Part shown: positions 12,822-58,047 of the stretch, in pieces | Numbering within the stretch: position 1 is the stretch's first letter | How the letters are laid out: each line of letters starts with the position of its first letter | DNA from: Liolophura sinensis | Taxonomy: Eukaryota > Mollusca > Polyplacophora > Chitonida > Chitonidae | Assembly (NCBI RefSeq): GCF_032854445.1 | Contig: NC_088301.1 | Coordinates: 49,287,116-49,351,115, forward strand | Direction of reading: 5' to 3' | DNA length: 64,000 bases | Program-made: the position numbers and the translations under genes | Notes under the pieces: generated by a model | What the model saw: the letters and a program-made list of their open reading frames with translations, nothing else | Database searches by the model: none | What the model was told of the DNA's origin: nothing

Positions 12822-12943
<122 letters not shown>

Positions 12944-18951: not shown

Positions 18952-19370
18952 TTAATAGTGTTTCTTATGATTGTACGAGTGCGATGTAAAGGAGGAAGAA
19001 GTCCTTGATGAGTAGGGTTGTGTCTGTGGGGAGGCTGCAGCTGCTGCCGTTTGTGGGAGAGGTTTGCTTGGGTATGGCTGGTTGTTGGAGGATGGGTGAG
19101 GTGGTGGGGCTGCCCCAGCAGAGTACAGGGGTGGTCTGGTTGGCGCATGAGCTGAATACTGGGTGTGATTATAACTGGGCTGACCCCCTGCCCTCTGCCG
19201 CAGTGGTCCCATGCTGTAGTTGGACTTGTTAGATTGGGGGAAGCCCGGACTTGGATGAGCCACTGTGCGTTGTGATTGAGTGGGTGTGGTGTACACTGCT
19301 GGATGATGCGTAGCCGGTATGCGTGATGTATTATTCACACTTCCCACATGATTTGCTGTATGTAGCCCAC
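18952..19370 (-). CDS. KMT2E: KMT2E-type gene, last coding exon
   Basis: Encodes the final 140 residues: low-complexity, rich in Pro, Ser, Gln, Asn, Tyr and His, with AAAAAS and several NHxQYS/PYPS-like turns, ending in Lys-Lys-His-Tyr. It parallels the His/Pro/Gln-rich tail of vertebrate KMT2E, which also ends without a folded domain. The acceptor is TTACAG. Confidence 0.9.
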
Positions 19371-22300
19371 CTGTAAGGCAAAACACAGAAGTCTTTGTCA
19401 GCAGCCACCCACAAACAGGGAGAATATCAGCTATTAGCATATTACACAGCTTGGGCCATCCAATTTAGAGGAAACCTAACAGAAACTTGCAGCAGAAACA
19501 AAGCTTGCATAATGAATACTGGTAAACTAAGAAATGCACCTAAATGTACAATCCAACACAAGGGGAAGACAACCCAAGAGCATCACTCTCAGGCATAATC
19601 CATTAATTTTCCTGAGGAGATGTTTCTCATGCTCTAAGTCCTAAAGTACGACAGTGGCACTTGCTACCACAAAATCACTTCCATGCTTAAAGACTGAACA
19701 CAATCCTGCATGGTCAAATTTAATTTCTTTGAGACAATAAACTGCATTCGCCAAACAATTCATTTGAAACATTTTCAATAATTTCATATAATGCACAATA
19801 TCTTACAAAGGCTTTTGTGGATGTAGTATACCAAATGAAATCATAATGAAGCAAACAAATTGGGTTGCACAACTTGAAGATTAGACTGAGGTACCATGTA
19901 CATCCCTTAAAACAAATACTTTTGTGACAAGGCTAATGCACTTCTCATAACATAACATACCTTGATATGGGGTTGGTGCAGGTGCTGCTGCTGGGTGAGG
20001 AGGAGGAGGAGCTGCCCCAGGCGGAGGAGGGGGTGGGGACTGGTTGAACACATGGGGAGACTGGTGAGTGGAGTTAGGATGAGACGGATGTGGTCGGGAT
20101 GGAAATGTCTGTAGGGACATCAGTGAAGGAATCCTACCCGGGGGCTGACCAGGCACTGGGGGTCCCAGCCTTGGCTGTCCTCCTGGCGGTGGTACAGGCT
20201 GTGGTATTGCCAGTCCTTGTATACGGGGGTCGTGGTTAGCATACACGGGTCGGTGAACAACTGCATTTTGAGCACTTTGCGCATCCCTACTCAGCTCTGT
20301 TAATAAATGAACAATGTTTGACAAAAGGTGCATAGAAAACACACACAGAAGAAAACATGCTTCTAAAAAGAGATAGTCACCTTTTTATAAACAAATACTG
20401 TTCCAATTAATCTCAGTAAAACATACAGTATGTAAGTTTCAACTAATATTTCATGTCACGACAGCGCAAATGCTCAAGGCTATTTCTAATTTACACAAAT
20501 GTACAACTGCAGAATATTAGTCAAAGGCTTTCTGCTTTCCAATGAACATCGTGCCTCTAACAGCAATAGCATGCAGTAAGCCATGTCAAGCCATCACTCA
20601 CCCACAGGCTTCCCAGGGGGAGGTGGTGGCACACTGCTAGGTGGAGGCGGGGGTGGGGGGGTTTGCGAGGTTTCCCGAGAGCCGACTTTCTTGTCTGCCC
20701 AAGCAGCAATAAAATGAAAATTGTACAAATGTTTTTTTTGTTTGTCATAACATGTCATAACAGACAGCCAGTATTTACAAGAATAACACAATAACACATA
20801 TCTTTGAGAAAATTTTCAACACAAAAAGAGTTAATCAACATACATTTTTCTACAAAGTAATAATTATTACAGGTATAGTGACAGTATAGTTAATTTTCAT
20901 CTATGTTAAATTAAATCTATGTTTATTTCATCCCACAGAATTCAAGTAAACAACCAGAAATGTTATCACTCAAGATGTATCCTGTAACATTCACAGGCAG
21001 GAAATTCCAAATATGTGTTTGATTAAAAAAAAATAACTCATTAAGCATATGATAAAGCGTAAATTAAGGGATGGTGTGTTTTAAACTAGAAAGTTTATGG
21101 AACAGAAGCACAGCAATAACCATATTTGCAAATATTGAAAGACTTTGTTCAATTAAAAAAATGAAAACCAGCAAATGCCAAAAAACTCAACAAGGCATTG
21201 GTGTAAATGAAGCCAAACCTGAAAGCTAAAAGCTGGACACAAATATGTAACTGTATCTTAATGGACTCACCAGGACTAGACTCTTCCTCATCACTGTCAT
21301 CCAAACCAAACTCCATCCGTAGTCGCTCGGTCAGACTGAGAGGTTTATCTCGTGATCTGGATCCCCACCTCACATCTTCATCTTTCTTTAAAGGTGAGCT
21401 AAGCCCATCTGATGAAGCCCAAGAAATTAAAATGAAAGACAAAATATACAACAAAAACAAAAAAATAAAGAATACATCTAATCCCATAAAATTAAGCAAT
21501 ATACATCAGACATTTGGACCTGTGAAATAAGTATATTTCAGGGGGGAAAAAAAGCATTGCAACTATCACTCCTTACAGAGCATGTGCCAATTTGCAGATT
21601 TTAAATCTCTGCCACCTCTGGACAAGTTTGACATCTGAAACCCAATCTGACACACATGGGCTTGCTAGGGGTTAGCATACCCATTAATATTCTTGTGCAG
21701 AATAATCAGCATTTTAATCATGTGGCACACACACTAGATGAAGAGATATGTCTCAAGTATTATACTTTTCGTCTATTGCTGACATTTACTTTCTACCTCA
21801 TCACCATGACCATAATTGCCTTGGCCTTAGTCAAGATTTCTGTATAATATTTGGCATGCAATGGGAGGGAGTAAGGGAGACAATCCATGCCATTTTTTTC
21901 TTCTTTTTTCTTTGCTCTTTATTGCGTGATAGACTGAATGAATGATGACGGACTCCTGATATCATTTGTATCATAAACTGCATGACTGATGACCACTCCT
22001 GGTCTCATTAAAATAAACTGAACAACAAGTTACCTCGGAACTCTGGTCTCCCTGGACTTCCTGGATCAAAGAAAGGTAAAGGTGCAAGAGTAGGGGTGTT
22101 TCTTCCCGGGGCTGGAGGAGTGGCAGGTGCACCCGGAACAGTTTTACTTGGAGTGCCGTTCGAGCTGGTCCCACTTCCCTTCTCCTTCAATCTTTTTCTA
22201 TATTCTAAAAGACTCACCTGCAAATGTCCAAAATGGTATACATTAACACGGTCACCCTGTATAATCTAAGTTGTTTGGGAGGGGAAAATATCTTGGTTAA

Positions 22301-25300
22301 ATGGAAGTACATAAAACCAAATCAATGATCATTTTCAAATATTCAAAACCATGTACAAAAATTTGGCTAAAATTATATTTATTTATTTATTTGATTGGTG
22401 TTTTATGCCGTACTCAAGAATATTTCACTTATACGACAGCGGCCAGCATTATGGTGGGAGGAAACCGGGCATAGCCCGGGGGAAACCCACGACCATCTGC
22501 AGGTTGCTAGCAGACCTTCACACATACGCCTGAAGAAGCTAGTACTTTGAGAATAGTGTACGCTTTAAGATGTATTTAGACATCATAGCACACCAAGCAG
22601 TATCTATATATGGGAAGTGTCGAAATTCAGAAAATGAAAATGTAAGAATCGGGCAAAACGAGTGACTGGAGTCAAGAATGATATTTTAGGTCAAATACAG
22701 TAATATTAGTACACTCTGGTTTTAGTAGGCCGTAACCCATGAATATCGTCTAATTAGTGTTCAACCCTCTATCATAAATATGTGGCAATGAATTTACTTA
22801 AATATTAATGTTCAGTTATACCTTCTTTTTGGCAGGTACAGGTGGTGGAGGTGGCTGTGGGGGTAATGGTGGTGGTGGCAAAGGGGGCGGTGGAGCTGTA
22901 GAGGTGGAGTCTGCAGACATCACTGTCATTGAGCTGTGAAAGACTCCTGCGGGTGGTTCAACAGGTAGGTTGACGCCCATCGAACTGTCACAGGCTGATG
23001 CTGGCAGACGCTCCCCAACACTACCAGTTATCTTCAGGCTGTCTCCTGATAATGAGGAGACGTGATCTCGCTGCAAGTCTGAAACTGTACTAGAAACACC
23101 GGGAGAAAAAGCCTCATTGGCTTCTAAAGTATCCCCTGAGCCCACACAGGCAGTATGCAGAGCTTGGACAGTCTGTGATGTACTAGATACTGAGGGATCA
23201 CATGCTGGCTGGTCTGGCTCACTACCACTGTCTGTCAATCTCTCTAAGGTACTGCTACTTTCTACATGTAAATTACTACCACTGTTCTGCTCTCTTACAG
23301 AGCCAGACACTAAATTGACATCACAAGTCACTGTAGTCCTGTCAACTGATTCGGTTGACTTAGGTGATGTACATGAAACATCACTTTGGGTACTGAATAA
23401 GCAACTCCTTGCTCCAGCAGAGTCACATAGTCTACTACCCTGGCTTTCCATTACTTCGGAATCTTCATTCACACTAGAACTACTATCTGATGTGGCAGCA
23501 GTAGAGGACGGCTGCGGTGGATTTGAATGGCTCTCCAAATAGTCTTGTGCGCATTTTGAAATCTCAGCTGTCTCTGTTGATGTATCAGCACTACATACAG
23601 GGGCACTACAATCAGTTTCAGAGGAACTACATATTCTATCTTTGTCCACATGTGCTGCCAAGATAACATTGGAGGACACTACGTCACTGTTTTCGTGACT
23701 CTCCATCTCTCCTTCCAGATTGCCCTGTTCTGAAACTGAATGTGTTTCCTGTGAAAAACTTTGTGACAGGCTTGAGTCTGTGACTTCCTCAGCCTCCATA
23801 GCCGATTTGGTATCTGTGCTCACTTCGCTGCACACGTAAGCACTATCCGTGACCACCTCACTTGATGTGGCCATGGTAACAGAAGTGTCAATATTCACAT
23901 TGGATTTCTCCTGGCCTACTGAACTGTCAGCAACAGTCATCTCCAGCATTTCCTTACAATGAGGTCCGCTGGGATGTTCTGCTGACACAAAACCTTCACT
24001 ACCTGCTGGATGAACACCACCAGGCATCTGTAATACAAGACAAAAAACCAGCATGAGGTGAGAGACATACAGTCACAGATTTCACATGCCACAGGTATAT
24101 ATAGTTTTTTGATGCAGATGCTAGGTTTCAAATTATAACAGGTTTATTCCACTTTTAAGGTGTGAATTTTAAATTTGCTGCACCTGATATGAACCAGACT
24201 ACTGAAGCAAGAATCACCAGTAATTAGATATACAAGGAGGAATAAAACACTACTTATAGTGTACAGGATTCTCATTAGGACTCCCTTACAAAATAGTTAT
24301 CATAGTTTTAAGAAAAGTTGTCAAGATATCAGACCTCCTGTGTTGTGCATGCTGATGATTCAGGCACAGTGGGATAACTCTTAGTTGCATCCTCCAAACT
24401 GAAGGCTGCAGATCCAGCTGGCTCATCCCCCGTGCAGGAAAGTGGAGGCGAGAGCGCGGACGGAGTGGGAGGTTGGTCAGCTGATAAAGATTCCCGGGCA
24501 AGACGACGCTTCTTTAATGGAGTGACAAAGTCTGGAACACGAGCAGGACACAAGAATAAAAACATTTCAGGTATTTTAACAATATTTAGCTCAAGAAAAC
24601 CTTGACAATTAATTTACACTCAAATCTGATTAAGATTTGTGTCAGGAGTAGAATTTGGTAGAATTGGTTTTTTTTATGTTTGTGACCATAGAGCTTATCT
24701 GCTGAATTGCTGTCTGACATGGAAGCAATACACCCAGTGCATCACAGATGACAATGCATCAAAATGATTAAACATCAAAATACATCCAGTCACACATTTC
24801 CAACAACAGACTGACCAGTCCTTAAACCACATGAAAATGTGAGAAATGCATAGTGAAGAGTCTACAGAATTGTATTTCACTAAGAAAACTTACCCACAGG
24901 AGGGGAGCCCCCTGGACTATGCATGGTGGCAGTGTGACATGGGCTGGTATCATCACAGCACAGGGCTGGAGACTCTTTACCGCTATCAGAACTTTGAGTG
25001 CTCTCGCACATTGCCTGACGCAGCCACCTCTGTGGAAGGAAAAAAAAACAACAATCTTACAAACACAGAAGAATTGTAGAATCAGTTTGTGGATCAAAAT
25101 ACCTGTATGGTCATTTAATCTAGTAAGGCTACCAAAGTGCTTGACTGTAGAAGACAGATAATATAAAACTTCAACTCAATACATAAAATACTGAAGTTGT
25201 GAATTTGGTAATTTGCGGAAATTAATACGTTTGCACACAGAGCATCAGTGATGAAACATCTCCATTGTACCATTGTGCTTTATATGTCTGTAAACCTTCA

Positions 25301-28300
25301 GCTAAATACATGCACCACTTTCTACAATGCCACCCCTAACATTTACCTTACCATTGATCCTAATAATTAATATGCCCACAGCTAATGAATGATGGAAACT
25401 CCTGCTTATGTTATGAGCTCAGGCATTACTTTGTAAGAAAATACAACTAACATTTTGCTTACACTGCTTTCCCTATTAGTGGTGAATGCCGCCACTGTTC
25501 ACTGCAAGGCAAAGTTATGCCTGTGCTTTGTTCAGGGGTGCTAAAAACAAACTGCAGTATTTATGACACATTATAACAATTATAATATACATTATTACAA
25601 TTTCAACTTACTAACACTTAGTTTTTCACAAAATGCGCCCTTGCAGAAAGAGTAGCTCTTCACACACCTTTTTGGCAGAGCCAATACTGCAGCCTTGTCC
25701 TTGTTTGTCCCCAGAGCTATGACTGTTCCTCCTCATGTACTCCAGTGTATTCCTTGGACTTGGCAAGCAGGTGACAAACATGGTCTCCTCAACATTTACC
25801 TCCAAAGGTTCTATTTTCGGGATGCAGGTTGTTGCAGGAGCACTAAGAGTGGCAGGCAAAGTGGGAGGTGCATTCGGTTGACTTGTAACTGGTGGCAAAG
25901 GACACACCTGTGTTTTCTCACTTAGCCACTCATTCATCAGATGCTACAAAGCAAGGCACAATGATCAATTTTACTTTGGATCAGCTTGTTTGATGGCAGC
26001 ACTCAACAACCACCATAACCAGTACTGGAAGTATTACATTGCCATAGCAGTGACCTGACCGAAAGTCAAATAGCAAGTTTCTTTTTTTTTTTGACATTCA
26101 GTAGTAATTTCACATGGTCTATCAAAGAACATCAAACTCACCCTTTTGGTTTTTACAAAACGAAAATTTTTATCTGATGAATTCGGACATCGTGTGTTGT
26201 TGGCCTCTGCATTAGGAGAAGGAGTTGTTGGAGCACTGGCTGGCATGCCCATATTGCTGTCCTCACTTCCTACTGTGCACTCAGAATTGCCACTGCTAAC
26301 ACGACTGCGTCTGAAAACAATGCTTACTTTATGTACAAATTTCACAACATTTCCCGTTATTTAACTTGACACTAGATGTACATGTAAATGCTACACGAAA
26401 ATAACACTGATACAGGATTTACTTTTCGAAAACGAAATAATGAATATTTATTTCTTTATTTGATTGGTGTTTTAAGCCACACTCAACATTATGGCGGAAG
26501 AAAACCGGGCAGAGTCCAGGGGAAACTAACAACCCTCTGCTGCTTACTGACGTATTTCCCCTGTACGGCTGAAGAGAGAGCCAACAAGGGTTTGACTCAC
26601 AGCGACCGTATTGGTGAGAGGCTCCTGGGTCATTGCCCTGCACTGACATGCCAACACCTTCAGCCACAGAGACCCCTAATACAATGAAAAAATCTGATTC
26701 ATACCTTCTCGCTGGATGACTTTTCCTTCTCTTCCTGCAAAGAAAACCAAGCACATAAACATCAATGCCTAGAAAGTCACTTCATACATATTGCTTGATG
26801 TCAGTTAAAAACATATAACCAATTACAAAACTCAGTTCAGGCTTGATCATCACACAAATCTATGAAAACACCAATCTCTTCAGAATTTGGCAAACTTTTA
26901 TCAATGATACAGGTGTCAAATCCAACTGACCTCTGAACTGCTTTCACGGATATTTAAATTAAAACTTTTGCCACAGAAACTCACCCTTTTTGTGGCTTCT
27001 GCTCAGCAACAACTTCTTGTTTAACTTCAACAGCTGGTAGAGATTCCAAGTCCTAAAATGAACAGAAGTTGAATTTATCTCTTGTTTTTTTTTTCTTCCC
27101 TACATCCTAAAGTTAGAAAGCAAAAAAACTGTTCCTTTCTACAACTAACTTCTTAACATTTCAAAATTTTTGTCGACTTCTCTACCTTCCATATTTCTTA
27201 CCTCTGACTGTGATTTTTCCACCTTCGTCTTTTTGGCAACTTCTAACCTGGCCAATGCTTCTTTCCTTCGTTCTTCTCTTTTCTCCAGCTTTTCAAATGC
27301 TTTCATTATTGCCTGCATTTTTCTCTCTTCTCGAGTCTGAAAAAAAAAATTGAGTTAACCATATCTTGTGCAAAATAATCATAACATGTTGTCCAACACC
27401 AATTACTTCCTAAATAAAGATTAGGGTAGACAAAATGATGACACACTTTGGGGATACCAGAATGAAATAATGCTTCTCTTTGGAAACTATGAAATTTTTC
27501 AATTAACAGTCTTACCAACTTTCTTTCCCGTTCAGCAGCCTGCTCTTCCGTTTCTCCCTCCATCGGACCAGTAGATGATATTGTATTATCTGAACTACAG
27601 ATATGGTTGTTATCAACAGTATCCACCTTATGCGGGCTATCCTGAAAGCATAGATTTACATAAAAAATAGCAACAAAAAAGACAAGAAGCAAATTCTGCT
27701 GGGAATTCTGTGTACTTCAGTAGACTAAACTTTTACCTGCACCCAATGTAGCAACCACCTGTAATTAAGGTCAAACAAAAACTTATTCATTAAATATTCA
27801 ACAACCATATGGATCAGGCTAATGTTTTATCAGAGATTCCACAAAATGAGCCTAGGCACCAAATTTTATCACATATTTGCAGGAGTTATTGCAATGCACA
27901 GTAACCAAAGTGTGACAGAGACACAGATCCAAACTGAAACTCCTGTTTTTTTGCCAAAGTTCAGAATAAAAAACAAAAGCAACAATATACTCACATCTGA
28001 GGAAGACAAGGGTAATTCTGACAAAGATTGTTCGGCCATTGAGACTGCGACAGCAGCATTAGCTAAGCTCTCCAAGAAACTGGTATCTGGTGGAGCAACT
28101 GTAGGGATTACAGGTACTTCTTCTTTCTTCACTTCTTGCTCTCTTGCCTTTTGAGCCTGACAACGCTTGCTTGTACGGAATACCACTGGACTTGTATCTG
28201 CGTTGCTGATAGAAATACAGAAACACAAAGAAATATATTGAACAGTAAATAACTTTGTTTCAGGAATGCCTGTACTTTAACCAAAATTACCAAAGGATAT

Positions 28301-31300
28301 TATAATAAGGTCAATAAATAGGTATATGTCATATCTGAGCACATTTTATGGACTTTCTGCTGCTTACTACATGTGTTATTGCCATGTATTGTAATATTAT
28401 ATTTCCTAAACCCAAGGATATTCTTTACTGGAAAATAATGAAAACTAAACAGTTGTACCTGTTTTGAACACTGTTGCGTTTCCTTTTCTTTTTGGACACA
28501 ACACAATTGACTTTTGAGCAAGAGCACTCCACGTTATATGAACTGAAAATATAAAATAAGTGACATATTAAGAGCCATGAATATGTACATGTACTGTTCT
28601 AGCACGTACTAAAATTCTCATGCCATTTATCTCCAAAGAGTCCAGCAAGCTGTACTTGTGGAGGATGAGAAATATGTACATGCACTGGATCGTTCTTTTA
28701 CATGTAAACTAGTAAAAGTATGTACCTGGCAAATCAAGATTAGCAAATATCAAGGAATCCAATTAATGTTCTTTCACAAAAATTACTGAACTGTTTAACA
28801 GTAAGATTAGAAAGATAGGTTGTTCAATGCAATGCTTTTGAACTCCTGGACCATGCACAACGATCAGCCAAAATTGCATACAGGTGCATTTTGCACAACC
28901 TAAAATATTAACGCCTAAAGGTAATTCAAAGCATCTTCTCAAGGATCAAAACTATCCTCAGACATGAAATACACCTTATAAAAGCTGTCCGTATGAAGTA
29001 GACTGATTGAGTGATCCCACTGCTAAGACTCAATGGTACTAATGAGAACTGGCTAAAATCATCAGTCCAATCCTGAATATGTCTGAGTCATGTGGTCCTT
29101 TGTGTGCAAGTCATGGACTTTAATGTCAGTAAATGATTGAAGTGTGGTTTAAGAGATTGGATCACGTGTACCTCACACAAACCATGCTATTCAACTGCAA
29201 TTTTACTACATGTCTTACCAATCTTTATACTGGTAGTCAAATGGGATTGTAATTTCTGTGCCCTTTGCAATCTCTGTTGTTGAGAAAATGTAAAACCGGA
29301 TATTCCCAGATGAAACAATGTGTCGTATCTGAAAAAGAAAACATATACTTATGAGGAGTTACATATTTAAAACAGTCAAAAGTGTTAGGTAATAAAATTA
29401 TCAAAATTGGAATCATTACTGCTGTTTTTTACCCTGTTGAAAGATTACACATGTATCATTTACCTCAGCATTTGGTGTGCATGACCTGCGAACAAACCGC
29501 GCATCATTTCCGTAGTTACTGGCATCAATACACAAACTCGTGTTATCAAACTTGGTGTAAAATAGTACAAATGGATGAAGTCTGCAAAAAAACAAAGAAA
29601 AAAAAAAAGAGGACATAACCTATTAGACATAAAATAATATATTTTACATCCTGACTTTTTTAAATACACATGCACAAAATATCTCACAAAATGTCACTGA
29701 TCAAATCCGTAATAAAGTTTTTAAAATTTATAAAATGGGATCCATCATCACTTATTCAAACTTTAGAACCCTTTCAACACTATATACAGTACAGGCACGA
29801 GTCAGATATTTACTGAAAGACAATAATTTCAGCTGTTCTTGGTAAATAGAGAAAATATGATTTTGATTCTCAAAGATCTCTGGAATACCTTCTTTACTCT
29901 AAGGAACAGTATAGAATAATGCAGAAATAGTATTATACTTCTTACTATTGGCTCATACAAGACTTACATTTTGAAGAAGATTTTCTCTGTGTCATATTGA
30001 TCTTTCAACATGACCCTGCCCACATATTCTATGATAGCTTCATTTTCTTGGATCTGCATGGAAGCCTTCAAACCCTAAGTACAAAAATCACAAAATGGAC
30101 AGTCAGTTACACTGGTTTTCTTGGACATTCATTGCTTTAATATCATGCAATGAAACTAACTACTAAAATATAAATATCATACCATATTTTACAAAAAGAC
30201 AAGAGAGTCACTTTTACCTTTCTATTTTTCTTAACATCAGCCACACAGCAGAGCTGAACCTGCAGCTCTCCAACCTTCTTGACTTCATCTGCCTAGAAAC
30301 CAAAAAAGATAGACACATCAGGGTGACGATTCAAAAGAATACAAGAAATTCTGACACTTTAAAAAATTTCATTAATCAACTTATGCCATTTTGTCATTCA
30401 CTTGAAATTATGCCATTTTGTCAATAACCATACAAATCCTATTTACGAATACATATGCAAAGGTTTTAGTCCTATGTTAAAATGGTATTCTTCTATGGCA
30501 GTTTAATTCAACCTGCAGTCATTAAAACCAACATGTACAAATAAATGAACAATCACTTACATGTTGTCCATTGAACTTGTTCACAGATAATATTTCTTGA
30601 AGAGCAGAAGAATAATGGTTGTTTCGGGCTGGTTCATACCCATCTGCCCATGGACTACAATAGAGGCAATGACCAGTCAGTGGAAATGTGGGAAATAACA
30701 TCTGACCTCTGGAATACATGTATTTTCTTTCACAAAGTTAAATTCTTATTTCACTTTGTGAAAGAAAATTACATTACATCAATCTGTCAATCATCTAGCT
30801 TGTAAGAACACAGAGAAAAACGAAACTGTTTTCATTTCCAAATGGACACTGATAATGAATGGTACACTTCAATAACAGTGCTCCTCCCCCTGTAACATGA
30901 TCTTTGCTGCACAGAATGTCAAGCAGGCAACATACAACCGTTGTACTTTTTTGCCCGTACGTCATTAAGGACTACTAGGGCGTTTTTCACCTTCAGGGCC
31001 ATAACTGCTGGTATATATCCATTGAACTGTTATTTTTGACTACTGGAGAATTTCGGTATCGTGGCTAATAACTGTCTTGAATTACTAAAGTTGCTTGGCA
31101 TGCCATAAAGTTAAACGCTAGAATACGAAGACAAATTCAGTTAGAAAACCACGTTTCAACACCTTTCTGTGTTATGCAAAAATATTCATGTATTATGCAG
31201 ACAGTTTTCAAAACCGGTTTGATCCTGGGTTTCCTAATGCTTACATCATTAATATAAAAAAGATGACTGGACCAAATCAACAATGTGGGATTCAGCCACT

Positions 31301-42010: not shown

Positions 42011-42099
42011 ATAAAGTCGAAACAACTCATGTGTTCTCATTGATTCCATCTCATACACAGTCGCTGCGACTCCAATGTACTGTTACAACAGTTGGTAAA

Positions 42100-42558: not shown

Positions 42559-43344
42559 ATGTTGGACCCATCGTCTAGCGAAGAAGAGTCTGAAAATGAA
42601 ACGCTTGAAGATGAAAACTCCGACGTCCTCAGCTTGCCTAGCGCCGATCAGCGTAGCTTGTCAGCAAGTGGGGATAACTTGAGTGTCGTCGGTGGACACT
42701 CTAGATCAAACAGTATTCGACCTTCTAGTCCAAGTCCTTCTCTCGTAAGTGAAAGGGACAAAGTTGATGATATTGATAAAATTGAAAAGGAAGAAGAGGA
42801 GAGAAAAAAGAGGCTACAGTTGTATGTATTTGTTATGAGATGCATTGCATATCCTTTCAATGCCAAACAACCAACTGACATGGCCCGGCGACAGACCAAA
42901 GTAACTAAACAACAATTACAGGCTATAAAGGAAAGATTCCATGCATTTCTCAATGGAGAAACAAATATAGTTGCGGATGAAGCTTTCACAAATGCAGTAC
43001 AGAGTTACTATGAGGTGTTTTTAAAGAGTGACAGAGTAGCTAACATTGTGCGAAGTGGTGGTTGTTCAGCAAATGACTTCAGAGAAGTATTCAAAAATAA
43101 CATTGAAAAACGTGTACGTAGCTTGCCAGAGATAGATGGTCTAAGTAAAGAAACAGTTCTTAGCTCTTGGATGACGAAGTTTGATGCTATATTCCGTGGA
43201 GAAGAAGACCCACGTAAGCAACCTCAGAGGGTTAGCACTGCACCATCAGAGCTAATCTTGAGCAAAGAACAGCTTTACGAAATGTTTCAGAACATTCTTG
43301 GTGTTAAAAAATATGAACATCAGATCCTGTACAATGCCTGCCAG
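42559..43344 (+). CDS. CADPS: CADPS exon 1
   Basis: 262 codons in one exon. Acidic Ser/Glu start (1-25), Ser/Pro linker (26-66), charged helix (about 69-88) and a long conserved block, including [37 protein letters not shown] and [15 protein letters not shown], all close to vertebrate CADPS. Ends NACQ at CAG|GTGAGT. The open frame runs 56 codons further into the intron, to a stop at 43515; that extension has no match to the family. Confidence 0.97.
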
Positions 43345-46300: not shown

Positions 46301-49300
46301 GCCCTGAAAAGTATTGATTGGTGTGGAAGTCTGTGTTGAGTGGGCAATTATGACAATAAGTGCTTGATGCAGCTGGAGAATGACCATATGATATATGAAT
46401 GGGCATAATCCAAATTGCATTTATAAAAGATTGGAAATAGCTGTTATGTTGTGTATTATATATCATGTATTAAAATATATTATGTTATATTGCTGTCAAG
46501 AATGCTATGTATGGAAACCGTTTCTTTGCCTATCCATTTTACTTGTTTCAACACCATGAACATTTGCATTTGGAAAACTCTGCCTGCAGCCTTGTGCTCA
46601 AATAATGGACACCTCCAGTCAACTGTTAATATATATATATATACAGCAACATGTCAATGTAAGAAATTGTTTGTTTTCATTATTTGGCTTGTAAAAATGA
46701 AATGAATTATCTATAGTATATTTCAAGTAGCATTCTTCAAGAGGCAGATTGTTTTTGTGTTTTGTCCCTCTGTTGTGTGAAAATTTTGTGTGGTTTAACA
46801 CTTTGCTAGAAAAAATAATGTACAAAACTTACTGATTTTGGAGAAATTGAGTGTGTAAATTTTGACTGCTTTTGAGATCACAGGTACATGTATGACCAAA
46901 AGTTTCTGGGCAAGGGTTTTCAACTTGAGCCCTAAGCCTGTCAGGTCAAAGTGATGCATGTTATTAGGGTGAATATTTCATGACTAAAGGCCCTAACAGG
47001 AAAAGTTTCATAAAATGCAATTCAGTACTTTTGTAGACAGTAGACTAATTTTTTCAGGTGCTGGTGAAATTTCATCTTGTCTGGAGGGCCTCCCTGTGTC
47101 AGTGCATTTTTCTACTGTGAATGGTTTTCTTGATGACCAGATGAAGTACCTTGTACCTTACATGTTTTAGATAATTTCAGGATACATGCATCCTGATCAT
47201 AAAATATGTTTTTTTTTTTTTTTAAATTATAGTACATGCATCTTCTTTTCTTTAGCGAAGTCAAACGCTGTCAACACAAACATCAAGGGGGGGTAACTTT
47301 GGAAATATTTTACAAGTACATGCCAGGCGCTCCTTGCATTTGAATTCAAGTGTTTGTCTGTGTCCTGAAAACGGACTCTTTAAAAAAATCAAACAAAGGC
47401 TTTTTTTTTTAAAAATCACCTTTTTTCAAAAAAAGTTATTAAAACTCAAATTTGGAGTTTGTCTTTCATACTTAACTATCAACGAGTTTGGTATTTCACA
47501 TAAACGTAAGGGAGGTAACTTCATAATAACAAGAGGGTTAGTGCGCTTAGTGTAGTTGCTAAAGTCTCCATGCAGAGGTTAACCTTAGAGGTAGTGTGTA
47601 GAAGTTGGGGAAGAGTACTTATGAGGAGAGTTTGCTGCTTCGAACGAACAAGGCAATAATGGTGGAACAGAAAGGTGGGGCTGGAGTAGTGGCCGAAAAC
47701 GTGGCAAGGGTTCCAACTGCAGATATGTAAAAAAGCTGATAGAAGGCAAGAATCAGACAAGTTATCAGAATGTTCTACAGCCCACCTACTTCGAATATCT
47801 TCCGAAGGAAAACAGCAGACAAAAGAGGACATCAGCTGCATAGCTGATGACTTAATACAGAGCTGCCCCAATATGTATCTGTGAACGCTGTTCTAATTCT
47901 TATCACAGGTAGTTATGATACATTGTGTTTTTGTTCCTGTCTTTGTCCTAGTTTTGGGGACATGACCCAAAAACACTTAAATTCGTCCAAAAATACAGCC
48001 TAAAAAGTGAACATTTTTTGCTTACCCAACATATTACACAATGTTAATGACCTGTTCAAAAGATGGTAGTCTATACAAACACTGTATCTTATCCTATTAG
48101 AGGTGCTAGTTTCCAGGGCCTGGGCAGATTCTGGAGCCTGGTCTTCTGTGATTCATTTCTCTGTGCACAAGTCAAATAAGGATACAACTTTAAAATCCTG
48201 GATATAACTCTGAGTAAAGGCTTGAACATTGAAGGTTGCATGTTTATTGTTACAGCACCCAAAAGTAATTTGTTGACACATTCATGTTTAATAATCAGAA
48301 CGGTGATATATGTCCAGTCTGAAGTAAAATGGACAGCAAGAAGAGTTGTAACGTGATGAAGACTTACAAATACTATTATTTGCTTGAAGTACTGTGCAGC
48401 TTGGTGTGAGGCCATTCTACCCCTGACATGGGGCTGCCTCCACCAAGAAGATTATTTCCCTGTTTTGGTCAAATTACTTACATTGCTTACACTGGTAGTT
48501 AATGCCTGTCATCTACTTACCATGTCAGAAGCCATATTAAAGTGATCTTCAAAACATTTAAGACAATTTTGTTTGAGGACAACTGTTTGATGCAAATGTC
48601 ACATATTTCTACTGACTCTTAATTTTCTATAACAAATGCGAACAAAGGGGCCTTCATGGTCAAGGGGTTATCATATTTGTGCTGTATAAAGACTCAAGAG
48701 CCCCTCAACAAAGGGGCAGTCATTTCAAGAAGTGATAGCATTTATCATGAGAACAAATAATGTGGAATAAAAAATGGTGATCACCAAAATACTATATTGT
48801 CTAATGAACACAACACCAACAGTAGTATGACATCACAGTGTGCAGCTAGAGCACATGCATCATAGATATAACCATTCAAGTTACAGATATTTGAATATCA
48901 GAGCTGAAGCTTTTGATTTAAACTGTTGCTAGCTACCTTAAATGATAAGGGACTGTTTTAACAGCTTAGTTAGTATTCATGCTTGCATTTACACATACAT
49001 CAGTTGTGGTTCTGTATCTGCTGTAACAGGTATATTAACACAGATCAGTTTATCTGTTTTTCTTTATGATGATGATGATGTGTTCACTAGCATGCATGTA
49101 CATGTAACAAGTGATCTGAATGTATTTCTTGATGTACCCTTTTTACCAAACGTTTGCTGTGACATATTGGTTTCTGAGGCAGGCAGCTTCTTGTGAAACA
49201 GGCAGACTATAGGTGGTTATTTCACAACTAGCATTGTCGTTCTAGAATGTACAAGAGCCGTAGAATTATTGTCAAGAGTTGCTGCGATGTTAAGAGATCG

Positions 49301-52300
49301 TTCATTTTCTATATATATAAGTCATTGTCTATATGCATATTGATCAATATGACTAAAAATTACTGAACAGCAGTAGAATTGATCATTCTGACCAGTGTGG
49401 GGAAAATGACTTTGTTGCAGTTATATATAGTATCCTTAACATTTAAAGTTAAAGCCACTTTTTATACACTCCTGCCATTAGATGGAGCATATTATGTTAT
49501 AGCGATTTTCTTCATATGTCCATCCGTTCGTATTCGTGTTATAATTCCAACACTTTTCTGCATAGAGTTTTCATTTTTGGTGGATATATATATACACAGA
49601 TGACGATGTGCCGCGACTCACATTTGCCCATTTTCATGGTTGACATGGTAACCAGATAGCCTTTTCCATATGTATACTATGTAAATAGATACGATTTCAT
49701 ATCCGGGGTATAACTCTAACTGTTTCCAGTGTAGAATTTAAATTTTTGATGGATACAAATATACCAGACATGATTTTTTTCCGCTTTTTCTTTGTTCAAT
49801 TTCGATTAATTTACCTGTTTTCCGTTTTTTTCTGTGTAGTAACATTTTACTACAGTTCCGATTTATTTCCTCAAAATAAAGTCGAAGATTCTGTCAATTT
49901 GCCGATGCATGGCTACCGAAATCTGGCATTGCCGGAGGTTATAATGTTATCTGAATGGAGTCTATTGTCCAGTCAGATCGTGTGTTTCATTAAGCCGAAC
50001 TGTTTCAACCAATCGAGAACAAGATACCATTATTCGAAGGCAGAAGCAGAGCCAGCCCGGTCAAAAATGGCGGCAACGTCTCGGAGTATCGTGGATCGAT
50101 CAGATAAAGATTTTGATGTGCGTACAGTGGACAAGGGGTTGAAAAACATCTGGAGGTGGGATTGGCTTGAACGGAAGGTCGAAGGGGAATACGTGGGAAA
50201 ATTCATGAGGAAGATAACATCCGCCGGTTTGGCTTTCTGTGAGTTGTGCCACAAAGATGTGCATTATGGGGGTTGCGGATGGAAGGCGCTAGCACAGTTG
50301 TATTCTGTGCCATAACATGCCAATCTAAACATTTGACTGAAAATGACCTGTACACTGCTAACAATGTCTGAACCAGAAAAAATCTGTTACATGTATTAAA
50401 TTTTGGCTTTGGTACAAAAATGCATTATTCTCTCTGTCCAGAAGATTAGAGTTCTGTGGGGACAAAGCAGATGGGAAAATCTGTAAATCAGAAAACAATG
50501 TTGGTTTTCTTCATATTTTACAGGATTCTAGTTTGATTTTAATAGCCAAAAACGTCCCAGAATCCATTTTCAGCCACGCAGATTTTTCTACCTTCCGCGG
50601 CCTAGGCGGCCCCTGGACCCCGGCCTTTTTGGGCTATGATAGTAAATTTCAGCTATTTTCTTGATTCACCACAATCATGTCTGATATACGCAGATGACGA
50701 TGTGTCACTACTCACATTTGTCCATTTTCGGGGTTGTCATGAAAACCAGATAGCCATTTTCCTCATATGAACTACATAAATAGAAATGATTTTGTGTTCA
50801 GGCTACAACTTCAACTGTTTTCCACGATGAAGATTCCGCTCAGGGGTTATACTCACCACAGTGCTGCTGGCATTCTTTCATACATTTCAAACAAATGCAT
50901 ATGTTGGGAAATGTGTTGTGTTCACCTGAACTCTTGCTTACAATGCTAACATTAACTTCAGTTTAAAAGTAAAGTACAATGTACATGTGTGGGTGCTTGG
51001 CATGAGTGTCAGTGCTATTGTGTTTCCAAAACCAGAGATGCAAGCAAGCTGAATGCCATTATGGTGAGACTTATTAGCTCCATATATGCATACAAATGCT
51101 TCAAGAACATGTAGTCATCATATTACTATCTGTCTGGCATCGGCATAGAAAGCAGCTGCCAGGCAGGTGCTCTTATTATTATGTTATCGAGTTTTGTCTG
51201 TTATGTAGAACATTTTGGTATTGGAAAGCCAAATGGATTTGTACAATGTAGTTCTTGCAGTTTGGCTAATATTACAGCACAATCAGCACTACAAGTCTGC
51301 AACACAAACAGAAATTTTTTGGTGAGGGCTGCAACTGGATGCCTAGTTGCATGCAAGGTAGTACTTATAGTTAAAAATATATTTGCAAGTGCTATGCTAT
51401 TTAGAATTGTAAGCCACAACTTGGACGATAGGAGTGGTCTAAGTAAAACATTTCATGCAAGTAAATGTATTTATAAATAGAATAACCTCTATTGAAAGAA
51501 ATGGCTGTACATTAAATACAGTTCAACTGCATGGCTTATTCATAAAGTGGCCTCAAGCCTCAAATATTAGGCTTTAGTGAAGAATGTGTAGGTTGGAAGA
51601 GAACCAGAGTAATTACGTACACATGTACATGTGTGTTAATTACTGTGAAGTTAAATGTTTAACAATATTATGTAAAAAAGCTCACTACTTTTTGAAGGGT
51701 TATCACATTTAACCTTATGAGAACACTACATGTAATTTGGCTTATCAGCAAGACTGGTGTATAGTTTTGATTGAGCCAGCTTTAAAAAAATCCCTATTTA
51801 GTTGGGTGGACCAGAAGACATATTTTGAAATGCCATACCTTATCCATTTTGAAGTTACTATGTGTACATTATCCATGTACATGTATCTCTTTGTTATAGG
51901 ACTACATGTACATGTTCTGCATGTGTGCTGTTCTCTTATGGCAGGGAGAGCATTTGTGGAATGAAAACCGTGTTGATTATCTGAAGTAATGTAAGACAGT
52001 TACATCATGCCTACACTTATTTTATTTCCTTTATTGTACTCATACATGTACATGTTCATATGCTTCCCTAAATGTATGCATGCACAGTATCACTGATGCA
52101 AATAGAATTGGCAGTCACCCAAATTACCAGGATGAAAGCTGTCTACAACACCCTGTATTTTAAGGTGTCTGTCAGCCAATGTCATAGATCTCTGCGCATG
52201 ATGTAGTTTAGCAATACTACTCTGTTGCCAGTGGGCCATATCTCCTCCATTCCTGTAATTTGAGCATAATCAAAGTTAATATATGCTTTTTGATCATGCT

Positions 52301-55300
52301 GATACATTAACCTGTACCAGATTCAAGGGTTGAAATTTACACATCCATAGTATATACATAATTGATAGATCTTTTCAGTATCATTCTGTTGACTGTCACA
52401 TGGAGTGTCAATGTAAACCACTGAAATCTTATAACATTTGTGAAATAAATTATGAATTAATTAAAGACCAGAATTGCCCTCATAGTACTTGACATTAGAA
52501 GTACCAGTTGGCAATGTAATACTAGTATATGGTGTTACAAAATCATGCATGTACATGTAAGCTTTATTGTAAAGGGCATATATTGAAATAATAAGTACAT
52601 GTACCTATGTTCATTATTGTAGTGATAGTGAAGCATTCTTGCATGTACATGTATCTGTCACTTGAGATGACTTGAGATGCTGTAAAAACAATGCCTTAAG
52701 CATAAAAGTTCAAGATTGTTCATTAACAAAATTGCTTGGCATTTTCATAAACTCTTACATTTCATTTCATATGCCGAAAAAATCAACTTCTTGGAAATTT
52801 GAGGCAGAAGAAGGTTTATTTGGATTTGAAGACAGAAAAACTTTTTTTCATAGGTATATTTTGCCACATTTTTGATTACTGTAGTTCAGTATGGAGAACT
52901 TGTACACAGTTACTTATTGACAGATTAGGGGCCTCTGTGGCTAAGTTGGTCAGCATGCTAGTGCAGCATAATGACCCAGGAGCCTCTCACCAGCCAGTTC
53001 AAGTTCAGCTCAGGCTGGCTTTCTCTCCGGCCATACATGGGAAGGTCTGGCAGTAATAAGCGGATGGTCATGGGTTTTCACTGGGCTTTGACAGGTTTCC
53101 TCACCCCATAATGCTGGTTGCCGTCGTATAAGTGAAATATTCTTGAGTACAGTGTAAAACACCAATCAGATAAATAAATAAATATTGACACACTATTTAA
53201 GCTTCAAAAGAGAGCAGCTAAAATTATTTTACACTGTAAACTACATACTTTCAACTACAAACTGCAGCTGTTTTCATGTTTTAAAAAATTGGAATTGTAT
53301 TTACTGTTTAATGTACATTGTGTAATGTTCATGTATTGCTATAGAGGGCCTCTGGGAAGAGCAAATGATTCATTTTAACAGAGCTACTTTCTTTAAGTAA
53401 AGGTTTCATTCATTCATTCATTTACTCACTAAAAGAAAGTTTATCAGACAGGGAGGCTCACGGGGCAGTCACACTCTCTGTTCTCTTCTCATTGAACCAT
53501 CCCATTGGCTTCATTCGGGCCTGTGACCATGGATCATTTTAGCTCAGTTACTCAGTGTGTGTGTGTAAATGTATGTGTGGCCATGGTCAGTGAGAGTGGC
53601 TGACTGTTAAATGCATTGTGGTTCACATGCAGAGCTTCTGCATCTCGTCCTAGATCCACTTTGCACCAGTCCAGGCCCCCTGGGACCCTGCTACTACCTC
53701 ACAGCAGGACCGTTACTATGGCCGCATTGATCAGTATTGAACTGCCTCGGAGCCAATAAGCACTGAAGCTAATGTGGGCTTACTGCCAACTGCATACTGT
53801 ACCTTCCTTAAGTCATTCAATACATATGCAATTGCTAGATGTGTTAAATACATGTAATTCTTAACCTGATAAGGGCAGTTTAACATTGGTTAGTACTTGT
53901 TATTGTATACATGTATTAGTGTATATCAGTAAATAATGTACGCTTACACAGCATGAATTAATATCAACATCTGCTTAAATGTAATTTTTATGAATTGGCC
54001 TGTACATGTATCTCATGTGTAGGCAAAGGTTCATTAGTACTACATCCAATGATAAAGGAAAAGGATTGTATTGTTTACACCACTCTTAAATTTGTTTAAA
54101 TGTGTTTAGCTATTAGTTGTAGCAATTGGTTTTGTTTGGTATTCAATACCCATGCAGTTACCCTGGATTTCCTGAGTTTGCAGACAAAGGAAATGAACCA
54201 ATTAGTCATTTGGCCTGGGTGGATATTGAGTATAATGAAAGCCTGTTACACAATTTACTGGGTTGGGAAGAAAGTACAGTCCAGCTGGTGAATGAAATTA
54301 TGTTCTGAAACTTTCATTGAAAATCAAGTTATGTGTCTGATACATTCACTATAAATGCCTTAACTTTTAGTCACCACCTCAGTCACATTTGTACGGTATT
54401 GTGCTAGGAGAAAATAAAACAGTCTAAAGGAAGACAATACCTGGCTAAAACATATTTCAACCAAATGCAGAACTCTCAAGCCTTCTGAGGGTGCGTCCCC
54501 ATACATGTATATCCATTCTGTTCATTCATGAAAAATAAACCCAAAAAACGAATCAGATCTACGCTAATCGTTTTTCCATCATTTAAATGCTAATTTGAAA
54601 CAGCTTGGTGAGAAAGGTGAAGGAAAAATGAGTAAAAATGATGTATTCTGAAACATTTTGCGCATGAATACAGTAACAGACTGACCTACCAGCTGATGCA
54701 CTCACAACAGGATATTAATCCCTAAGACGGCGGGCAAGATAGCAGTCCGCGGGAGCTCCCACTACCACATGTTCATTCGTTGCAACAACAACAACATGTT
54801 AACTGGCAAGAACAGATTAAGTTACGTATTTTGTCTGCATACCCTTTTTACAGGATCAAATACAATAGTATGCTACATGAAATGCTCAAACTGATTGACG
54901 GACGTCTCTGTTTTTTTCTGTATCCGCACGTTTGTTTCAGATTCATAGAGAAGAGTGTAGCACTTGTGGTGATCGTCCTGGCCAGGTATAGGCCTGAACA
55001 TCTATCGAGGTGTGCTGGCCGTCAATGAACAATGCTTTTCACAGTGTGTAAGAAAAGTAATCCTCTGGTGTGAATTTTCTTGCAATGTTTTGTGTTCCCC
55101 TCGGGTTATTTTTAATAATTGTTTCCATCTCTATAATAAGGTATATTCTCAAATATCCGAATTATGACTTGATGATGCATATATACAGTTGTTAGGTCAT
55201 CCCATGGTGTGTGGTAAACTTCAACATGCTGACCTGACAAACCACACGAAGCTTTTCATCCTATAAACTCACTATGTGACTAGCACACACATATGGCTTG

Positions 55301-58047
55301 GCTTAACAGGGAAGGAGGCGACGGGGGGAGGAGGGGAGTGAGGTGGGGCATCAACGGACGCTAGGCCTACGACACTTACAAATCTGTGATGAAAACCTTA
55401 CACATTTTCAGTCCATGCACCAAGAGAAAGTTGTCCAAAAAAACTGCACGTAAATTTCGGTGTTAGAATTTGTGACGGTATTTTATTGTAACCTGTGTAC
55501 AATTTGATTGGTGCTTTATGCCATATTCAAGAATATTTCACTTTTACGACGGCGACCAGCATTATGGTAGAAGCAAACTGACCGAGCCCTGGCGACTTTT
55601 TGTTCTACGATATTGGTCAGATGTTTTCATTTTTGTTTCAAGGTTAAGAGCTGCAAACATCGGAGTGAACATAATTGTGTGTTTATTAATTGTTTACAAA
55701 GGTATATCGAGAACAAAATAAATAAATATAACAAATAAATTTGTTCAACAAGCTAGCAGTTTATATTTACATTCGATTTGGAAAGTGAAATTTGACGAGG
55801 TAAAACATGCAATGTACAAGCTGTGTGCAAACCTAAATACAGCAGTAGCAATTAGATTCAGATTCAGGGTTAGCCTACTTGTAGACCTAATTTTATTTGT
55901 CGGCAATGAACATAAATTGAAATGCGCTCCTTACTTTGGCACGTTTTTTTTTTGTACGCTATATACCTAAATACTTGCATTATCAGATTCTCTGGTAGTG
56001 TGTCGTTTAAAAAGATTTTGCATGCCAAACACTTTGATCCAATCCAGTGAAATGAACAAGTTTGAACAATATGCCGACCGGGCAGGTACGTTTGATTGTT
56101 GAACACCTGTCTGTACATATCTTATATGTCTGTGTAGCGACCATATTTATCAAGATAACACAACACCCAGTCTTATTTAATCTTCGTTCTGTTTCTCAGA
56201 AAGCTGCCAGTGTACATGTTGGCCTACATGCAGCTGTTATCGTTGTTGCTGTAATCTGTGTGGATCCAGGCTAATGCACCTTTTGATCCGAACCCCTGAC
56301 TCTCCTCAACACTCACCCTAGTTATAAGTTCTCTCCTGCTGCGCCATTTGTAAGTGTTGTATTAGGTGTCACAGACTACTTTTGAAGAAGTCCCGAATGA
56401 GCCATTTCAAATTGGTTTGTTTTTCTTGAGGATAAAACGAATGAAGCTTACACCATTCGTTTTTGTAGTTGGGCTTTTCATTTGCGAAAAGTGAAGAAAA
56501 ATGCAGGATATATGGGGACGCTCCCTAAAAAGTGTCATACTTTATTATTTTAATGAGATTTCACCGAATAACATGACGAAGAAAATCTTAATACTCCACA
56601 AACGGATGAGGTGAAACTAGATAGACATCTTGATAATTTTATCCAATCAAACACGTTGCTATCAGATTGTGCAGCCTAAGCTGTGGCTTTACCCATTCAC
56701 TCTATGAAGTGACAAGATAACTACTGCACATTACATCATTTTGAGGTTGTTTACAACGATTTAGTTACGTATAGCCGAGGGGCCATTTGATACATTGTTG
56801 TGGGACTGGTCTGTATCATTTAAGGACCACCACCAATGTAAAATTTGTTGATTTCCAAGCGGTGTAATACTGAACAACGGTGTCACAAATTACGTCAGAC
56901 AATAGCATACCTTCTTGACCCAGACTGCATTCATCTCCCTAGTAGACCCAAACCTACTTAGACACTGTTCAAATTATACAGATATATTTTTTTTCGTTCA
57001 TTTTACCATTTAGTCAGCAGTTTCTAAATAAATATCGGTCAGTGAAAAATTAAACTGGGTATGTCGAAGGTTGATGAGAATGAGAAGACGGCATCTCACC
57101 TCACAATGCTTAAATTTAATTAAAACTTATGATACAATTTTTTTCTCTAAGTTTATGAGATATAACTTTTCTCTTTCTTGCATACAAGGAATGATTTTCT
57201 GTTTTCTTATATAAAATCTGATGGCTGCAATAACTAGACTGCCTTGACTTTCTATCCTTATGTCAGGAGGCTAATCGGGTACATCAGTATGAAGGCTTTT
57301 ATACTTTAGATCCATCTACATGATCAAAATGATCTGTCATTTTGATCCATCCAATCATTTTGATCCATGCAATCAGATAAATCTGTTTTGTTCATGCATA
57401 GTTTCATGTCTGCATTTTCTGTTGTCTGTAACAGTTGGATAATGCTGATGAGCAAGCAGCACAAGTCAGAAGGGAATTAGATGGACGGCTACAAATGGTG
57501 GAGATTATGCACAGGGTAAGAAAAACTACATCGAATTTGGCATGGAATTTGTGTCATCCATTCTGATTTATTGTCTGCAACATGACATGTATACATGTGT
57601 GTATATGTAATTGTCTACTGCTTATATTATGAGCTTTCCTAAGGTGAAATAATGCGAAAAATATATTTATCCTTTAATAGTTAGTTGCAAAAAATCATAA
57701 AGAATTTGTGGGAATTGAACATGTACAGGAAGTATATTTTGTTCTGTCGTCTCTTAAACAAGGTCCGTATATAAAATGGGTATATCCATGTATGACTAGT
57801 CGGTCAGTCCCTCCCCCCCACCCCCCAAAAGAAATCAAGCCTATAACTGTTATCGTTTTGCATATATGATATACTTTTGTCAGACGAGAAAACATCCAAA
57901 ATTTGTGGTGAAGGAGATGGAGAGCATGTTTCTTGATGAACTTCAGTCAGCAATTAACCTTTTGATGGCTAACCTAGAGAGTTTACCGGTATCCAAAGGC
58001 AGTACAGACTCTAAATACTCACTACAGAAGCTGAAGCGCTACAACAG
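42559..58047 (+). CDS. CADPS: CADPS/CAPS, N-terminal exons 1-3 (partial)
   Basis: Calcium-dependent activator protein for secretion: a cytosolic PIP2- and SNARE-binding factor that primes dense-core vesicles for exocytosis in neurons and neuroendocrine cells. Exons 42559-43344, 57435-57515 and 57884-58047 encode residues 1-343. The start [14 protein letters not shown] matches vertebrate CADPS ([13 protein letters not shown]), which fixes the ATG despite a weak context. A Ser-rich linker, a charged helix ([14 protein letters not shown]) and the conserved [19 protein letters not shown] follow. The C2, PH and MUN domains are not in the window: the third intron runs past its end. All junctions are GT-AG and in frame (phases 0, 0, 2). 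Invertebrates usually have one gene for vertebrate CADPS and CADPS2. Confidence 0.97.
45366..45386 (+). other. G-rich tract
   Basis: G6-A-G8-AGGAGG: a short purine run with possible quadruplex or triplex character, inside CADPS intron 1. Confidence 0.4.
47209..47223. repeat. Homopolymer T15
   Basis: Run of T on the plus strand within CADPS intron 1. Confidence 0.9.
48646..48709 (+). repeat. Decayed SINE head, family A-like
   Basis: Reads GGGGCCTTCATGGTCAAGGGG, then GTTATCATATTTGTGCTG, then ACTCAAGAGCCCCTCAAC. The head of the full copy at 52927 reads GGGGCCTCTGTGGCTAAG and CCAGGAGCCTCTCACC. The order and spacing match with many substitutions and no tail, so this is an old copy or a related tRNA-derived element. 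Confidence 0.45.
49535..50835 (+). mobile_element. Probable DNA-transposon remnant
   Basis: A 135-150-base block near 49590-49740 recurs in the same orientation at about 50684-50835, roughly 1,094 bases away (shared order: CAGATGACGATGTG, CTCACATTTG, CCATTTTC, AACCAGATAGCC, and a TATAACT...CAACTGTTTTCC end). Within the first block a unit of about 170 bases repeats once more (GTGTTATAATTCCAACACTT near 49536 and GGGTATAACTCTAACTGTTT near 49705). Between the blocks sits an 82-codon frame with a half zinc finger. No transposase catalytic region or terminal inverted repeat was identified. Confidence 0.4.
50067..50315 (+). CDS. 82-residue frame with half zinc finger (BED-like?)
   Basis: Starts [13 protein letters not shown] in a good context (AAAAATGG) and has [19 protein letters not shown], a basic KFMRKITSA, then C-E-L-C in [20 protein letters not shown] and a stop soon after. 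The C-x2-C with following basic and aromatic residues resembles the first half of a BED/C2H2-type finger as seen in hAT/ZBED-like transposon-derived proteins, but the two His ligands expected about 20 residues later are absent. Composition is unlike the flanking intron (GC-richer). It could be a first exon, a truncated transposase or a pseudogene. The frame is open upstream to 49746, but that part looks non-coding (Phe- and Leu-rich). Family call is inference. Confidence 0.4.
   Translation: MAATSRSIVDRSDKDFDVRTVDKGLKNIWRWDWLERKVEGEYVGKFMRKITSAGLAFCELCHKDVHYGGCGWKALAQLYSVP
52927..53184 (+). repeat. SINE family A, full length
   Basis: Reference copy for this window. The head GGGGCCTCTGTGGCTAAGTT carries the A-box TGGCTAAGTTGG; a B-box-like AGTTCAAGTTC follows about 50 bases on. 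The body has GGCTTTCTCTCCGGCCATAC, GGTCATGGGTTTTCACTGGG and CCATAATGCTGGTTGCCGTC; the tail has ATAAGTGAAATATTCTTGAG, then AAAACACCAATC and (AAAT)n. About 258 bases. tRNA-derived, moved by reverse transcription. The name of the molluscan family cannot be given from sequence alone. Confidence 0.92.
53446..53800. other. GC-richer patch in CADPS intron 1
   Basis: About 350 bases noticeably richer in G and C than the surrounding intron (for example AGTCCAGGCCCCCTGGGACC, an imperfect palindrome around GGCCCCCTGGG), with short TG runs and many stops in all forward frames near 53550. No coding exon is supported. It could be an older insertion or a regulatory segment. Confidence 0.3.
55502..55592 (-). 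repeat. SINE family A tail fragment
   Basis: The plus strand reads ATTTGATTGGTGCTTTATGC, then TTCAAGAATATTTCACTTTT, then CGACCAGCATTATGGTAGAA and GACCGAGCCCTGG. Truncated at both ends relative to the full copy. Confidence 0.85.
57435..57515 (+). CDS. CADPS: CADPS exon 2
   Basis: 27 codons: [20 protein letters not shown], then MVEIMHR. Human CADPS has [20 protein letters not shown] followed by MADQIARERK. Acceptor GTAACAG, donor AGG|GTAAGA, phase 0 on both sides. Confidence 0.97.
57516..57883 (+). other. CADPS intron 2
   Basis: 368 bases, with a C-rich tract near 57811-57829; nothing else recognised. Confidence 0.9.
57884..58047 (+). CDS. CADPS: CADPS exon 3
   Basis: 54 codons plus two bases: [17 protein letters not shown], then [16 protein letters not shown], then LQKLKRYN. 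Human CADPS has [36 protein letters not shown] and LQKLKRSHN. Acceptor TTTGTCAG, donor ACAG|GTGAGT. Phase 2 out; the next exon should begin by completing an Arg or Ser codon. Confidence 0.97.

Follow-up and report, generated by a model that had tools for sequence, protein, structure and literature searches.

Organisation of the KMT2E-type and CADPS gene pair

The window analysed here is a stretch of 64,000 nucleotides from the chiton Liolophura sinensis (C7:49287116-49351115, C7 being contig NC_088301.1) that contains no N bases. It holds a KMT2E/SETD5/upSET-type gene on the minus strand, with its start codon at 37484, and the CADPS gene on the plus strand, with its start codon at 42559; the two are thus arranged head to head, 5,074 bp apart from ATG to ATG. 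The assembly comprises 609 Mb in 632 contigs, and C7 accounts for 60.36 Mb or 9.9% of the bases. Genes were located by tblastn with human protein sequences, and their identities were then confirmed by Pfam and PDB matches. A preliminary description of this DNA had already placed a KMT2E-type gene and CADPS head to head, which is borne out by colinear exons and by the domain and structure matches. It had also let both genes diverge from one short region; the divergence stands, but with 5 kb between the start codons this wording fits only in part. The main features are listed below (window positions, counted from its first letter).

18952..37484, minus strand: gene of the KMT2E/SETD5/upSET type, from its start codon to the probable stop; the exon model is rough, and its C-terminal end is uncertain
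37414..37484, minus strand: first coding exon of this gene, resembling the human KMT2E N-terminus, a weak likeness when taken alone (E 0.44 and 0.14)
34085..34829, minus strand: PHD finger in two exons, best PDB match human MLL5 PHD
29219..30074, minus strand: SET domain exons, best PDB match human KMT2E SET
37485..42558, no strand: intergenic region of 5,074 bp, without a recognisable coding gene and without a match in Rfam (gathering threshold) or to a tRNA
42200..42799, plus strand: CpG-richer stretch spanning the CADPS start (observed/expected 0.98-1.11 against 0.5 in the whole window), possibly the CADPS promoter
42559..64000, plus strand: CADPS gene, which leaves the window and reaches about C7:49368274

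On the minus strand, colinear exons of the KMT2E/SETD5 type run from 37484 down to about 18952 when human KMT2E is used as the query. A rough splice model has 26 exons and ends at 19881, its last exons being uncertain. The first coding exon is directly followed by a GTGAGT donor, and an in-frame stop lies 39 nt upstream of the ATG. Pfam finds SET (1.4e-15), PHD_5 (4.8e-10) and PHD (7e-6) in the protein. The best PDB matches are 2lv9 (E 2e-32) and 4l58 (E 5e-29), both human MLL5 PHD, for the PHD finger and 5ht6 (human KMT2E, E 1.9e-37) for the SET domain, in which the RRSCTPN motif was found. Because the PHD and SET parts match human MLL5/KMT2E structures above other PDB families, the KMT2E-type name does not depend on the query. 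In the alignment with the human MLL5 PHD, the predicted residues of the chiton finger are largely identical. The PHD finger of KMT2E/SETD5-type proteins is expected to read H3K4me3, and SET-9 and SET-26 of C. elegans are relatives. By the title of the paper that describes them, SET-9 and SET-26 are H3K4me3 readers (PMC6010342).

CADPS, which is expected to prime dense-core vesicles, is represented by colinear exons from 42559 to C7:49368274, 17 kb beyond the end of the window. Those inside the window lie at 42559-43344, about 57435-57515 and 57884-58047. The model has two more exons, which are tiny and doubtful. An in-frame stop is located 12 nt upstream of the ATG. The joined exon translations contain C2_CAPS (2.8e-55), PH (4.2e-11) and MUN (1.9e-83), and the order C2-PH-MUN is that of the CADPS/CAPS family. 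When the whole genome was searched with the first 860 aa of CADPS (E <=0.001), 14 of the 15 matches belonged to the window gene and one, weak (29% identity), lay on C8. A PHD-SET query of the same genome gave eight matches, six from the window gene and two weaker ones (C8, C6) that covered the PHD part only. Each gene therefore appears to exist in one copy, as would fit an animal without the vertebrate duplications. A pattern search for stray CADPS-bearing animal DNA in collections of bacterial and viral contigs yielded 62 and 16 matches, respectively, none of them a relative.

A common chromosome in the chiton and in human

The human arrangement was taken from published gene lists, several of which seem to follow the map order. 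An autism gene table that includes KMT2E, SETD5 and CADPS2 gives their locations as 7q22.3, 3p25.3 and 7q31.32, respectively (PMC4394543). CADPS falls within a deletion of 3p14.2-p14.1, and FEZF2, CADPS, SYNPR and ATXN7 are named in an 8-Mb 3p14 stretch of 19 genes (PMC4446465). According to these two sources, the preliminary description was right to assign KMT2E and CADPS2 to 7q, and SETD5 and CADPS to 3p. Around KMT2E, one list reads LHFPL3, KMT2E, SRPK2, PUS7, RINT1, EFCAB10, ATXN7L1, CDHR3, SYPL1 and, further along, FOXP2 and then PTPRZ1 (PMC6834745), and one region of the dog genome shares many of them, in a list that is mostly alphabetical (PMC9897549). Within 6.1 Mb that contain 52 genes, SETD5 stands beside LHFPL4, with SEC13 28 list entries later (PMC5011510); SETD5 and SEC13 are also found inside one 3,327-kb deletion (PMC7902511). 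The order near CADPS2 is given as PTPRZ1, AASS, FEZF1, CADPS2 (PMC8962598; PMC3038855). The synaptophysin family belongs to a paralogon described in a paper whose main text names neither CADPS nor SETD5, MLL5 or FOXP (PMC3826523), and a duck study mentions ATXN7, THOC7 and SNTN together (PMC9317390).

From these human stretches we chose seven probe genes and located them in the chiton genome, the one invertebrate genome read. COG6 and COG2, which we take to lie on other chromosomes in human, served as controls.

C7:43.52 Mb: FOXP, probe
C7:45.67 Mb: FEZF, probe, 90% identity match (187 zinc-finger matches genome-wide)
C7:53.04 Mb: ATXN7 family (SCA7), probe
C7:53.07 Mb: THOC7, probe
C7:55.48 Mb: synaptophysin-like, probe, weak (single 25-aa match, E 9e-5)
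C7:58.79 Mb: LHFPL3/4-like, probe
C1: RINT1, probe
C7:50.25 Mb: COG6, control
C6: COG2, control

In this small, hand-picked sample, six of the seven probes and one of the two controls are located on C7. Measured against the share of C7 in the bases, the binomial probability of six or more probes out of seven is near 6e-6, or 5e-5 if ATXN7 and THOC7 are counted once (5/6) and 4e-4 if the synaptophysin-like match is left out as well (4/5); these values, like those that follow, are rough, since the probes were hand-chosen and a base share is not a gene share. All eight C7 loci (the pair, the six probes and COG6) fall within 15.3 Mb; for loci spread evenly over C7 the probability of this is 5e-4, or 1.5e-3 with ATXN7 and THOC7 merged. 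Counted from CADPS, FEZF is 3.66 Mb away, ATXN7 3.7 Mb, the synaptophysin-like gene 6.1 Mb and the LHFPL gene 9.4 Mb.

The close neighbourhood was surveyed through coding-like open reading frames (ORFs) in the 100 kb that flank the window at either end and in 40 kb more downstream, and the candidates were tested. The survey is crude and may have missed genes, so that the next gene is here the next gene recognised. Downstream of CADPS it gave the following order, the PDB matches being those of exon pieces:

C7:49377677-49381802, minus strand: SEC13, next recognised gene after CADPS (human SEC13 in PDB, E 6e-138)
C7:49383877-49384076, no strand: scaffold gap of 200 N between SEC13 and AASS
C7:49394604-49407920, plus strand: AASS (human AASS in PDB, E 6e-67)
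C7:49413468-49415073, minus strand: CHCHD4 (MIA40/CHCHD4 in PDB, E 3e-36)

AASS is one recognised gene away from CADPS here, and in the human lists only FEZF1 separates it from CADPS2 (PMC8962598; PMC3038855). This closeness, although it extends across the scaffold gap, is a case of local conservation. SEC13 follows CADPS directly in the chiton and lies some way from SETD5 on 3p, which makes its conservation weaker than that of AASS. The human counterpart of CHCHD4 is presumably located at 3p25.1.

Taken together, the KMT2E-type gene and CADPS very probably share an old chromosome. We hold it to be likely, with good confidence, that both are ordinary, deeply conserved genes, that their common chromosome stems from an ancestral bilaterian linkage group and that slow rearrangement suffices for the rest. 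Both genes would have belonged to one such group and would thereby have come to lie on a common chromosome, and in vertebrates the group would have been duplicated, its copies forming parts of 3p and 7q in human. Locally, the order KMT2E/SETD5 - CADPS - SEC13 - AASS - CHCHD4 would preserve one pair of close ancestral neighbours or more, namely CADPS and AASS, and slow rearrangement inside the old chromosome would be enough to produce the observed arrangement. The ancestral linkage group is something that we infer, as are the promoter positions and the functions of the two genes. In line with this reading, the chromosomes of amphioxus and scallop have been reported to correspond largely, with scrambled order inside (PMC7269912).

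Some observations weigh against it. RINT1, which in human lies close to KMT2E, is found on another contig; the control COG6 lies inside the very stretch occupied by the probes; and the 200-N gap at C7:49383877-49384076 stands between the pair and both AASS and CHCHD4. Either COG6 was itself part of this old chromosome, or the controls differ less from the probes than would appear. The linkage proposed in the preliminary description is supported in part, as far as the common chromosome is concerned, by virtue of six of the seven probes and of SEC13, AASS and CHCHD4, while the picture is not a clean one, with RINT1 off the contig and COG6 on it.

Age and cause of the adjacency

The preliminary description had argued that the two vertebrate pairs look like duplicates of one ancestral pair, still adjacent in this DNA. 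That argument by itself cannot show the adjacency to be ancient, because plain linkage equally predicts the human homologues to lie on the same arms. In human, each pair shares an arm and is not adjacent (7q22.3/7q31.32 and 3p25.3/3p14; PMC4394543, PMC4446465).

We see an even chance that shuffling within an ancestral chromosome made the two genes neighbours in this lineage only. Gene order within such chromosomes is reported to be extensively rearranged (PMC7269912), and the wide separation of both human pairs would be expected. Moreover, FEZF adjoins CADPS2 in human and is 3.66 Mb off here, so one of the two lineages must have rearranged this region. What shuffling accounts for less readily is AASS, still only one recognised gene from CADPS.

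The same closeness of CADPS and AASS, common to chiton and human, means that part of the block rearranges slowly, and speaks for the other main possibility, namely that the head-to-head adjacency itself is bilaterian or older and that vertebrates split the pair in both copies. SEC13, the next recognised gene after CADPS, is located within 3.3 Mb of human SETD5 (PMC7902511). Furthermore, human KMT2E is five genes from ATXN7L1 and seven from SYPL1 (PMC6834745), and CADPS shares its 8 Mb with ATXN7 and SYNPR (PMC4446465). As members of the ATXN7 and synaptophysin families, these genes are paralogous, and this suggests that KMT2E and CADPS descend from genes that lay close together before the vertebrate duplications. 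On the other hand, ATXN7, the synaptophysin-like gene and the LHFPL gene are 3.7, 6.1 and 9.4 Mb from CADPS in the chiton, the Drosophila genes presumably lie on different chromosomes, and both human pairs are far apart, at 7q22.3 versus 7q31.32 and at 3p25.3 versus 3p14. In the nematode, we assume both genes to be on chromosome IV, which the passages of two papers, giving no chromosome number, do not confirm. On balance, an ancient adjacency is conceivable, with the odds somewhat against it. Still more tentative is a larger block of KMT2E/SETD5, CADPS, SEC13 and AASS, dating back at least to the divergence of the chiton and vertebrate lineages and with the head-to-head pair as its core, of which SETD5 and SEC13 on human 3p and CADPS2 and AASS on 7q31 would be the remains; we regard it as rather unlikely. 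A literature search on CADPS, KMT2E and microsynteny found no paper that combined CADPS with microsynteny, and one, on a wasp genome, that combined KMT2E with it; among the papers listed by a further search, none named SETD5 or CADPS.

The two genes might also be held together by a bidirectional promoter or by enhancers that they have in common, as their divergent orientation and the lack of a recognisable gene between them could suggest. Transcription might begin nearer the middle, and either gene might have a non-coding exon upstream. However, 5,074 bp separate the start codons, and the CpG ratio is clearly raised over its surroundings only at the CADPS start. The KMT2E-type start, with a ratio of 0.76, does not stand out: four of the 23 bins (200 bp) of the gap reach 0.82-0.89. 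The stretch at 42200..42799 is a possible CADPS promoter, a call whose specificity is lowered by other parts of the window that attain 1.2-1.4. Mainly in view of the distance, the two genes probably have separate promoters. Their expression is presumably different as well, broad for KMT2E versus neuroendocrine for CADPS, and nothing found here ties the functions of the two proteins together. Shared regulation of the pair has no positive support, and we consider it improbable.

Other scans of the gap and the window add little to this picture. None of the six ORFs of at least 80 aa wholly inside the gap had a Pfam match above the cut-off, one reaching PUFD at E 0.046, below it; Rfam (gathering threshold) and tRNA scans of the window were negative. 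A promoter scan of the gap returned 19 sites against 19.4 expected, with a bacterial consensus applied to an animal host. An NRF1-like pattern at 42419 was rejected as being at chance level, its three matches in the window being equalled in 24 of 100 shuffles. Ten families of short direct repeats (two copies each) and 20 pairs of short inverted repeats in the gap were counted without a shuffle control and are given without interpretation.

The position of human FEZF1 beside CADPS2 and of FEZF2 in the CADPS stretch might indicate a regulatory block that serves the developmental gene FEZF and contains CADPS as a mere bystander (PMC8962598; PMC4446465). This is very improbable, as 3.66 Mb separate FEZF from CADPS in the chiton, where such a block is therefore not intact.

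Other features of the region

The ATXN7-family (SCA7) and THOC7 genes of the chiton are 23 kb apart (C7:53044605-53069472). With human THOC7 assumed to stand beside ATXN7 on 3p14.1, they may be a conserved pair that is better supported than KMT2E and CADPS. Among the matches listed in the FEZF search, C2H2 zinc fingers cluster at C2:15.2-21.5 Mb. Past CHCHD4 there are a nucleotide-sugar transporter exon and an FAD-binding amine-oxidase-like exon. Near-identical amine-oxidase-like exons are repeated at C7:49445110-49464045, likely as a tandem gene array, and an exon at C7:49489737-49489886 resembles urocanate hydratase by eye. On the far side of the KMT2E-type gene only two exons could be named: one for a universal stress protein (Usp), lying past the gene's 3' end (window 14638-14919, plus strand), and a weak indoleamine 2,3-dioxygenase-like exon below the Pfam cut-off (C7:49263337-49263441). 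Long runs of TA and TG/CA dinucleotides occupy window positions 12824-13153.

Comparison with known systems

As it stands, the locus is another local example of slow animal chromosome evolution. If the block were old, the ancestors of KMT2E/SETD5 and of CADPS/CADPS2 would have begun as immediate neighbours, and their scattering to 3p and 7q could be dated. From the viewpoint of gene regulation, the pair has its head-to-head orientation in common with conserved divergent pairs that use bidirectional promoters. Yet in those pairs the transcription starts are less than about 1 kb apart, whereas here 5 kb lie between the start codons.

A further likeness is offered by the bilaterian and chordate linkage groups of Simakov et al. 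2020, in which genes keep their chromosome and lose their order (PMC7269912); here, likewise, a common chromosome is probably retained, and the arrangement is ordinary conserved synteny. That study is whole-genome in scope, and its main text does not mention SETD5; ours follows a single gene pair and a few probe genes in one genome. Finally, the paralogous regions of human 3p and 7q have in common with C7 the families KMT2E or SETD5, CADPS2 or CADPS, LHFPL3/4, AASS, FEZF1/2, SEC13 and ATXN7(L1). The two genes of each human pair are far apart, whereas in the chiton they are direct neighbours.

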